64,000 nt of DNA from Desulfobacterales bacterium (lineage in GTDB: Bacteria; Desulfobacterota; Desulfobacteria; Desulfobacterales; SpSt-501): assembly GCA_030834695.1 (NCBI GenBank), contig JAUQXK010000031.1, forward strand, positions 88,079-152,078. Direction: 5' to 3'. Each line of letters begins with the position of its first letter. Within the stretch, counting starts at the first letter, position 1. The notes under the pieces are model-generated. The model was given only the letters and a program-made list of their open reading frames with translations, was not told the DNA's origin and searched no databases. This document shows positions 26,691-29,267 of this stretch, piece after piece. Both the position numbers and the translations under genes were made by a program.

Positions 26691-27383
26691 TCATTGAACA
26701 ACGGGGTATTTTTCCCTATCCCATCCGGAGATCCCCTGCCGTAAGTTGAAAATGCGCTTGAAACCGTTGTCGATCAGGATCTTCGCGGCGACGGTGCTGC
26801 GATTGCCGGTGGCGCAGTAGATCAGAATATCTTTGTCCCGGTGACCCGCGATTTCCGGCCAGCGGGCCTGCAGCTGCTGCAGCGGAATCAGAACGGAGTC
26901 CTTCAGATGCCCGCGGCTGTATTCGCCCGGTGTGCGCACGTCCAGAACGAGCGGCGCGATGTTCCGGATCAGCTCGGCGGCGTCCTTCGAAGCGACTTCA
27001 CGGTAGTTGGCCTGCTGATAGTCGACAACGTTGAGGAACCCTTGCGAGGCTCCCAGCGAAAAACGGAACGCGCCTGATTTTTCCATCTTGAAGTAAGGAG
27101 CTTCGTCGATGGTCCCGGAAAGCTTTTGCTCGATGGAAAAGGCGGGGATCGAAAGGACGGTCTCGTTCTTCGGATCGGCGAGCTTGAACTTGACGTAATC
27201 TCCCCGGTAAACGGTCAGGTTCACCTCGCGGCCGGCCGCTGCAACCTCCAGCACCCGAAATCCCCCGACGATTTCGCCGGAGGGCGGGTTGTATTTTGGC
27301 GCCGGCTGCGAAACCACGGGCGATTGGCCCAGCAAAATCAAAACCAACGCCGCCATCAAGGGAATGAAAAGGATTCGCTTCAT
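26691..27383 (-). CDS. Exported rhodanese-domain protein
   Basis: This is a 230-residue protein with an N-terminal signal peptide (KRILFIPLMAALVLILLG). A beta-rich domain of about 100 residues follows (EVNLTVYRGDYVKFKL), reminiscent of cupredoxin-like sulfur-carrier folds. The C-terminal rhodanese domain covers about residues 130-230, with PLVLDVRTPGEYSRGHL and the active-site loop IYCATGNRSTVAA, where the cysteine would carry a persulfide. GGAGAAG precedes the ATG at 27383. It lies downstream of the IscS-like gene behind a long hairpin and is probably periplasmic. Sulfur transfer is the expected chemistry. Confidence 0.85.
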   Translation of the reverse strand: MKRILFIPLMAALVLILLGQSPVVSQPAPKYNPPSGEIVGGFRVLEVAAAGREVNLTVYRGDYVKFKLADPKNETVLSIPAFSIEQKLSGTIDEAPYFKMEKSGAFRFSLGASQGFLNVVDYQQANYREVASKDAAELIRNIAPLVLDVRTPGEYSRGHLKDSVLIPLQQLQARWPEIAGHRDKDILIYCATGNRSTVAAKILIDNGFKRIFNLRQGISGWDREKYPVVQ

Positions 27384-27469
27384 TTCTTCTCCAGACTGAA
27401 TTTCGATCACCTCTCTTGTCGCGCCCGCACCGAGCGGGAACATAAAGAGCGCCGAGAAGGAGCGCCGTT

Positions 27470-27541: not shown

Positions 27542-28720
27542 TTAACCTCTGCCGGCGGCCTTGTTGTAGAGCGGGGAAATCTCGCGCAAGGTGGTCACGA
27601 CCTGCTTGAGGGATTTCAGAAAGCGGGTTACGTCGGACTCGGTGTTGTCGATGCCGAAGGCGATCACCAGCGTTCCCTGGGCGTCGGCGTGGCTCAGGCC
27701 GATGGACAGCAGCACATGGGAGGCGCGCAGGGAACCGGTCGCGCATGCCGAGCGCGTGGAAACGCCGATCCCCTCGTCGTCCAGCATGAGCATGACGCTC
27801 TCGCCCTCGATGTATCGGATCGAGGCTGAAACCAGATGCGGCAGGCTGTGCACCGGGTGGGTGTTGATGATCACCTCGTCGAGATGATTCGGCAGCTCGC
27901 GCAGAAACAGGTCCTTCAACCCCTTCAAATAGGCATGGCGCCGGTCGATGTCGCGTGCGGCGATCTCGGCCGCCTGGCCCATCCCGATGATGCCGATCAG
28001 GTTCTCGGTGCCGGCGCGCTTGTTGTTTTCCTGTACCCCGCCGTCCAAGATCGGAAAAACCTTAACGCCGCGCCGGATGTAAAGCCCCCCGACGCCGGTC
28101 GGACCGTAGAAGCTGTTGGAAGCAAAGCTCACCAGGTCGGCTCCGATCTTTTTGACATCGAACGGCATGATGCCGACCGAATCCACGGCGTCCGTGTGGA
28201 ACAGAATCTTCTTCGCGCGGGCGACAGCGGCAATTTCCTCCACGGGTTGGAGCGTGCCGGTCTCGTTGTTGCTGTGCATGATGGAGACCAGGATGGTCTC
28301 CGGCGTGATGGCGTCGGCCACGTCCTGCGGCCGCACCCGGCCCTGTTCGTCCACCGAAAGGCTGGTTACCGTAAAGCCGTCGGACTTCAGGCGGCGCAGG
28401 CTGCGGATGACGGCATTGTGTTCAATGTTGGTGGTGATGACGTGTTTGCCCCGGTCGGCGTTGGCCATCGCAACGCCCTTGATGGCGTGGTTGTCGGCCT
28501 CCGTACCGCCGGAAGTGAAGACGATTTCTTTCGGCGCATCGGCGTTGATCAGCTTGGCCACCTGCTCGCGGGCCCGCTCCAGGGCGGCCGCGGCCTCCTC
28601 GCCGGCCCGGTGCTGGCTCGAGGGGTTGTGGTAGTCGTGTTGGATGGCCTCGATCATGGCTTGCTTGACTTCAGGCAACAGCGGATTGGACGAAATATGA
28701 TCCAGGTTGATATATTTCAT
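27542..28720 (-). CDS. IscS/NifS-like cysteine desulfurase homologue lacking the PLP lysine
   Basis: This is a fold-type I aminotransferase-like protein of 392 residues, closest to IscS/NifS. The histidine over the PLP ring (His101 in NIEHNAV), Asp177 and the mobile-loop cysteine (Cys326 in STRSACATGS) are conserved. The lysine that should form the Schiff base is not: the usual S-x-x-H-K-x-x-G-P-K-G reads SFASNSFYGPTG, with Ser203 in place of lysine. The glutamine that normally contacts PLP is Asp180. Archaeoglobus fulgidus IscS is a known precedent without this lysine. It follows the iscU-like gene by 31 bases. The start at 28720 avoids overlap with that gene. Confidence 0.85.
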   Translation of the reverse strand: MKYINLDHISSNPLLPEVKQAMIEAIQHDYHNPSSQHRAGEEAAAALERAREQVAKLINADAPKEIVFTSGGTEADNHAIKGVAMANADRGKHVITTNIEHNAVIRSLRRLKSDGFTVTSLSVDEQGRVRPQDVADAITPETILVSIMHSNNETGTLQPVEEIAAVARAKKILFHTDAVDSVGIMPFDVKKIGADLVSFASNSFYGPTGVGGLYIRRGVKVFPILDGGVQENNKRAGTENLIGIIGMGQAAEIAARDIDRRHAYLKGLKDLFLRELPNHLDEVIINTHPVHSLPHLVSASIRYIEGESVMLMLDDEGIGVSTRSACATGSLRASHVLLSIGLSHADAQGTLVIAFGIDNTESDVTRFLKSLKQVVTTLREISPLYNKAAGRG

Positions 28721-28751: not shown

Positions 28752-29267
28752 TCAATGCTCTTCCTTGAGGTCATGCTGGCAGGCCTCGCAGAAGGTTACG
28801 CCCTCCTCGATCTCCACATCGCAGTATGGACAGTAGCACGTGTCGCCGTGCGAATGCTCGTGCTCATCCTTGCGCTTGAGCTCCGGCCGCTGGATACCCG
28901 CTTTGCGGTCCTCGTAATCCTTTATGGCCATCTGCAAGGCGTCCGCACCCAGATTGGAGCAGTGCAGCTTGTTCTTCGGCAGCCCTTCCAGGGCTTCGGC
29001 CACGTCCTTGTTGGTAATTTTCTTGGCCTCTTCCAGGCTCTTGCCCTTGGCGATCTCGGTCAGCATGCTGGAAACCGCGATGGCCGACCCGCATCCAAAC
29101 GTTTGGAATTTGATGTCGTCGATGCGTTCGTCCTTGATTTTGAGATAGATGGTCATCATGTCCCCGCACAGGGGGTTGCCGACTTCGCCGACGCCGTTGG
29201 CATCCTCGATGGTGCCGACGTTGCGGGGGTTGCGGAAGTGATCCATCACGACCTTGTTGTACATCAT
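28752..29267 (-). CDS. IscU/NifU-type Fe-S scaffold with C-terminal zinc-ribbon extension
   Basis: This is a 171-residue scaffold protein. The N-terminal IscU domain has its three cluster cysteines, Cys34 (GNPLCGD), Cys59 (TFGCGSA) and Cys103 (KLHCSNLG), and the aspartate after Cys34 that aids cluster release. After residue 125 a charged linker leads to a module not found in ordinary IscU, with C-x2-C pairs at 146-149 (CPYC) and 160-163 (CEAC), which looks like a zinc ribbon. AGGAG precedes the first of two tandem ATGs. It is the first gene of the pair with the unusual IscS, and no iscR, hscA or ferredoxin gene adjoins. Confidence 0.9.
   Translation of the reverse strand: MMYNKVVMDHFRNPRNVGTIEDANGVGEVGNPLCGDMMTIYLKIKDERIDDIKFQTFGCGSAIAVSSMLTEIAKGKSLEEAKKITNKDVAEALEGLPKNKLHCSNLGADALQMAIKDYEDRKAGIQRPELKRKDEHEHSHGDTCYCPYCDVEIEEGVTFCEACQHDLKEEH

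Follow-up and report, generated by a model that had tools for sequence, protein, structure and literature searches.

What can an IscS-like protein do once it lacks the lysine that forms the Schiff base with PLP? The question is raised by a gene in the window, i.e. the whole stretch of 64,000 nucleotides of Desulfobacterales DNA that was analysed here (Table 1). An earlier note, made from the letters of this stretch, had described the product as an IscS homologue with a re-drawn PLP pocket that was unlikely to be a simple desulfurase, and that might dock IscU and pass on sulfur from another source in an organism living in sulfide. The precedent named there, the IscS of Archaeoglobus fulgidus, lacks desulfurase activity (PMC7585200) and has so far stood as a puzzling exception.

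Table 1. Features of the IscS-like locus, in positions of the window
Feature	Position	Strand	Evidence
Lysine-less IscS homologue, 392 aa (P0001), starts ATG	27542..28720	(-)	ORF, Pfam, NCBIfam, AF2, Foldseek
Codons of A200 (gct), S201 (tcc), N202 (aac) and S203 (agc); Ser-x-His-Lys in active enzymes	28112..28123	(-)	sequence, alignments
Asp180, equivalent to Gln183 of E. coli IscS (PLP phenolate contact)	28181..28183	(-)	alignment; PMC9978102
Val352, equivalent to Arg354 of E. coli IscS (substrate pocket)	27665..27667	(-)	alignment; PMC9978102
Cys326, kept, in the mobile loop STRSACATGSLRASHV	27743..27745	(-)	alignments
IscU/NifU-type scaffold, 171 aa (P0002), directly upstream of iscS	28752..29267	(-)	TIGR03419, NifU_N
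C-terminal zinc-ribbon-like tail of IscU, CYCPYCDVEIEEGVTFCEACQ	28764..28841	(-)	sub-threshold Pfam zinc-ribbon; CxxC...CxxC
Rhodanese-domain protein with hydrophobic, signal-like N-terminus, downstream of iscS	26691..27443	(-)	profile match

The family to which the protein belongs is clear from its fold. It matches PF00266 of Pfam with 251 bits, its AF2 model has a pTM of 0.85, and Foldseek matched this model to NFS1, IscS and the A. fulgidus IscS (4eb5) with TM scores of about 0.9. The class V fold and a mobile-loop cysteine, as in type I desulfurases, are both present, the loop itself (residues 324-331) being modelled with a pLDDT below 50, and the LR..SPLY end, which forms the IscU-docking C-terminus, is retained. 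Fold, loop cysteine and docking end are thus held in common with E. coli IscS, human NFS1 and NifS, whereas the equivalents of Lys206, His205, Gln183 and Arg354 of these type I enzymes are missing. Furthermore, the best NCBIfam model, TIGR03402, gives 429.5 bits where its cut-off is 530.75, and TIGR02006 gives 347.1 bits against a cut-off of 643.2; the curated equivalog score of an active type I cysteine desulfurase is not reached.

Alignments to PDB chains and to the family place Ser203 at the Schiff-base lysine, Asn202 at the preceding histidine, Ala200 at the phosphate-site serine and Asp180 at the glutamine, and they show that His101, Asp177 and Cys326 are retained; the earlier note had been right on all of these residues. 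No lysine stands at a shifted position in the alignment or in the segment SFASNSFYGPTGVGG, and even the lysine of the downstream GPK is a threonine. A base-calling error at residues 200-208 is excluded, since relatives with 97% (L050) and 86% (L051) identity, from separate assemblies, are also lysine-less. Their differences from the window gene amount to 50 synonymous versus 11 amino-acid-changing codons in L050 and 120 versus 54 in L051. The gene is under purifying selection, and the mostly synonymous changes together with many invariant positions rule out a degenerating pseudogene. To these replacements the present analysis adds Val352, i.e. the loss of the substrate-pocket arginine, which was absent from the earlier note. 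In E. coli IscS, the changes K206A, Q183E and H104Q abolish activity, and R354K leaves it nearly full (PMC9978102), so that loss of the arginine is in itself no proof of inactivity, although the replacement in the window protein is uncharged. With the equivalents of Lys, Gln, His and Arg all replaced, the sequence makes it very unlikely that the protein is an ordinary desulfurase, as had been suspected.

The pattern extends well beyond one protein. We have compared 172 homologues, picked by similarity to the window protein rather than at random, of which 132 are lysine-less and 40 lysine-bearing, and at positions 180, 202, 203 and 352 the two sets show zero overlap. Position 180 is Gln in 40/40 lysine-bearing proteins and in 0/132 lysine-less ones, where Asp, Ala or another residue is found; position 202 is His in the former and Asn or another residue in the latter; and position 352 is Arg in 39 of the 40 (the remaining one having a gap) but Val, Leu or Ile in nearly all lysine-less proteins. 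His101 and Asp177, on the other hand, do not vary in either set, Asn152 and the Gly-Thr-Glu loop are also conserved, and Cys326 is present in 131 of the 132 lysine-less homologues, the last row being gapped. Ser203 and Asp180 do not form a functional signature: position 203 is variable (T in 44 lysine-less proteins, Q in 35, P in 33, S in 12 and A in 5), Asp180 is limited to part of the lysine-less clade, and the combination of Ser203, Asn202 and Asp180 occurs in only 7 of the 132. These residues also bear on whether the protein might carry out an altered PLP or PMP chemistry on an amino acid, with another residue replacing the lysine. His101, Asp177, Asn152 and the Gly-Thr-Glu loop are conserved as such a chemistry would lead one to expect, and the K206A form of E. 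coli IscS still holds some PLP (PMC9978102); the conserved pocket may indeed bind some ligand. However, the spread of T, Q, P, S and A at position 203 speaks against a base that would stand in for the lysine; in addition, the arginine of the substrate pocket is missing, other residues occupy the sites of the Gln and His contacts, and the A. fulgidus relative is inactive (PMC7585200). We therefore give this chemistry only a very slight chance.

A second constant element is the partner. The iscU gene lies 31 bases from iscS in the window, and its product carries the Cys-x-Asp, Cys and Cys assembly-site residues, matches the NifU_N domain, scores 198.7 bits with TIGR03419 (cut-off 187.9) and has 4eb5_C, the A. 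fulgidus IscU, as its nearest solved chain. An iscU is found just upstream of the lysine-less iscS at 52 of 55 named Desulfobacterota loci, which makes the docking of IscU proposed in the earlier note likely; of the three exceptions, L053 and L100 end at a contig edge and L101 has none. The LPPxK chaperone motif is replaced by LPKNK in the window IscU, as in 103 partners of lysine-less IscS, and the A. fulgidus IscU has LPKQK; since LPKEK occurs in some of the NifU-type proteins that accompany lysine-bearing enzymes, an LPKxK-type motif is not diagnostic of lysine-less pairs. The zinc-ribbon-like tail of the window IscU reaches 19.4 bits with a Pfam zinc-ribbon model, below the cut-off of 25, and its CxxC...CxxC pattern recurs in almost every IscU that is paired with a lysine-less IscS. 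By rule, the tail is found in 119/125 of these partners versus 0/13 partners of lysine-bearing IscS, counts that cover every locus for which an IscU was available and that are not independent, the loci being related; 4 of these 13 are long NifU proteins. Six partners fail the rule, of which L087, L143 and L170 are fragments whose ribbon cysteines are seen on reading, and L187, L197 and L202 are without the tail.

What the pair does is best approached from these retained parts. The lysine-PLP Schiff base being absent, the usual desulfuration of cysteine would be impossible, and the protein would instead join the adjacent zinc-ribbon-tailed IscU in an assembly complex, in which the ribbon may have a role. 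Cys326 would reach the IscU site and serve as a temporary ligand, or a shield, of the nascent [2Fe-2S] cluster, and the cluster would draw its sulfur from sulfide, which is abundant in a sulfate-reducing cell. Such a sulfide-fed docking and ligand role is favoured by the retention of the fold, of the mobile loop with Cys326 and of the IscU-docking end. It is also in line with what is known elsewhere: Cys321 of A. fulgidus IscS, the equivalent of Cys326, ligates a [2Fe-2S] cluster on IscU (PMC9769115), anaerobic E. coli without IscS can build Fe-S clusters on IscU from H2S (PMC13015791), and the SMS system is fed by sulfide (PMC12192291). On balance, we think it probable, though well short of assured, that a dead IscS binds IscU and provides a loop cysteine to the cluster while sulfide supplies the sulfur, along the lines of the proposal made for A. 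fulgidus. The E. coli case is at the same time a counterpoint, in that H2S is used there on IscU without any IscS, which leaves the retention of a dead IscS unexplained. The conservation of His101, Asp177 and Asn152 in the PLP pocket, where a ligand may thus still bind, also speaks against this reading.

The source of the sulfur can be narrowed by what else the genomes encode. The window's genome (5.65 Mb in 149 contigs, 100% complete, 4.96% contamination) has a DsrA match, from which its organism would be a sulfite or sulfate reducer, in agreement with the sulfide-rich setting supposed in the earlier note. A second, normal desulfurase is found in it as well: L001 (LSGHKIHAPKG), which has a long NifU as its neighbour, and L003 (VAGHKLYAPKG) are lysine-bearing, as is L002, of another subfamily, so the lysine-less IscS and its IscU need not be the main route there; SufB/D gave no match in this genome. 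Of 62 genomes that carry the lysine-less protein, 56 have a further strong class V match, which in most cases is a desulfurase. This co-occurrence would suit a sulfur relay, the main rival to the sulfide-fed ligand reading, in which Cys326 receives a persulfide from another enzyme, be it a sulfurtransferase or an active desulfurase, and the lysine-less IscS hands it to IscU; hardly any variation is seen in Cys326 and its loop, as is needed for a persulfide carrier. However, no other strong class V match is found in the remaining six genomes (G007, G053, G104, G134, G192 and G277), and with G038 there are seven genomes without a lysine-bearing desulfurase to load Cys326, all of them draft assemblies, each of which may be missing a gene. 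In G007, G053, G134, G192 and G277 the next class V match reads as SerC (phosphoserine aminotransferase). In addition, no sulfurtransferase gene is consistently adjacent to iscS: among the loci read, the rhodanese gene adjoins it only in L050 and L051, which rules it out as a conserved sulfur donor, and its signal-like hydrophobic start makes the protein look exported; with this look and an adjacency confined to the closest relatives, it seems a poor candidate. The relay is in our view unlikely, and in relatives that show no other desulfurase the sulfur must come from elsewhere.

The same co-occurrence could be read in another way. Inactive paralogues of enzymes often act as regulators, and active paralogues do accompany the lysine-less protein in most genomes, where it might pair or compete with an active IscS or NifS, or with the IscU of that enzyme, and so tune cysteine-dependent assembly. 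Yet the lysine-less IscS forms a two-gene unit with an IscU of its own and persists where no active paralogue is found, and we consider a regulatory pseudo-enzyme highly improbable.

The sulfide-fed ligand reading is supported by G053, G277 and G038, which belong to one genus and are 93-99% complete. Each has a dsrA and a single NifU_N protein, the zinc-tailed IscU (the ribbon being read in G053 and G277), SufB/D was not found in any of the three, and the lysine-less IscS with this IscU is their sole recognised Fe-S system. Among the other desulfurase-free genomes, G104 matches SufB/D; in G007, at 99% completeness, SufB/D was not found, and NifU_N gives a second match, a partial one. In the class as a whole, SufB/D is rarer in genomes with the lysine-less protein (11/68) than in those without it (127/223), with p = 2e-9 uncorrected for kinship. 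A link to sulfate reduction within the class was also considered and is uninformative, a DsrA match being present in 262 of 291 genomes.

How far the lysine-less proteins reach, and whether they have one origin, can be judged from the surveys and a tree. In the class survey of 291 genomes, 67, including the window's own, have a protein with at least 60% identity, or 68 when a partial gene in G038 is counted, and all other matches are at about 44% identity or lower; a phylum survey of 297 genomes yielded more lysine-less proteins, down to about 45% identity. Two Aminicenantota loci of Candidatus Saccharicenans, L105 and L111, are lysine-less too. A tree was built from the alignment after its active-site columns had been taken out. 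In it, 35 lysine-less representatives, among them the A. fulgidus IscS as the one archaeal sequence, form one side of a single branch, the support of which (94/90) is just under the usual mark of 95, and which is recovered in 92% of bootstrap trees. The A. fulgidus sequence used agrees with PDB 4eb5 over all 382 residues. By this placement, at 94/90 support, the window IscS shares ancestry with the A. fulgidus IscS apart from lysine-bearing IscS; the tree favours, without proving, one origin of the lysine loss, and many independent losses are disfavoured by it. The window protein is best explained as belonging to a deep clade in which IscS is catalytically inactive.

The A. fulgidus precedent therefore stands, and the distinctness that the earlier note had claimed for the window protein does not: the asparagine is shared (SSND), position 203 is variable and both proteins belong to the same lysine-less clade. 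In comparison with the known structures of A. fulgidus IscS and IscU (PDB 4EB5, 4EB7, 4HVK; D199K form 4R5F), the two IscS proteins are 42-44% identical over the fold match, both lack the Schiff-base lysine and have Asn at the histidine position, both keep the loop cysteine and the SPLY end, and both have a hydrophobic residue at the Arg354 position (Leu in A. fulgidus, Val352 in the window); the IscU partners share the LPKxK motif. They differ in that A. fulgidus IscS has Asp at the lysine position, where window-type proteins have Ser, Thr, Pro or Gln, Ala rather than Asp at the glutamine position, Ser rather than Ala at 200, and a retained GPK lysine; the A. fulgidus IscU chain has 153 residues and can be aligned only to residue 130, so a window-like zinc ribbon is not seen. 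IscS1-IscU1 of Methanosarcina acetivorans, compared by description only, resembles the window pair in its reported absence of the lysine and its unusually large IscU of 24.2 kDa (PMC7585200), but has the opposite gene order, iscSU, and an LPPIK motif. The minimal MIS and SMS systems share with the window pair the bare two-protein unit. SMS uses sulfide without a desulfurase (PMC12192291) but is built on SufB/SufC homologues, of which the SufB/D type has no match in the window's genome, and MIS is described with a cysteine desulfurase (PMC12192291), whereas the window IscS appears from its sequence to be without the catalytic residues.

What makes the case interesting is how broad the clade is, that four active-site positions are lost together, that a zinc-tailed IscU recurs as the partner, and that in some genomes nothing further turned up. 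In a partial literature search, which is weak evidence, we found no paper on a lysine-less IscS in Desulfobacterota or on a zinc-ribbon IscU. If the results hold, A. fulgidus IscS was the first to be studied of a clade that is widespread, with members in archaea, Desulfobacterota and Aminicenantota, and whose IscU partner takes a recurring form, and sulfide-fed assembly on an ISC scaffold would be a standing route of anaerobes, comparable to the sulfide-fed SMS. We put forward more tentatively, as a possibility that falls somewhat short of probable, that these pairs make up a cross-domain Fe-S lineage without cysteine desulfuration, in which a dead IscS and a zinc-ribbon IscU are fed by sulfide and which, as the only Fe-S system of some sulfate reducers, would leave these organisms with no cysteine desulfurase. 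In practice, "cysteine desulfurase" is a misleading annotation for lysine-less iscS genes.

Some distant proteins of the phylum survey have SGPS, SGIS, SAPS or SGVS around position 203. L196, L197, L202 and L204, with these residues at 200-203, represent a second, more distant lysine-less type within the same order, and the genome G263 holds both this type and a window-type orthologue. At the two Aminicenantota loci, the IscS has AADQFGGPKG and is followed by an IscU whose tail bears two zinc-ribbon-like motifs.
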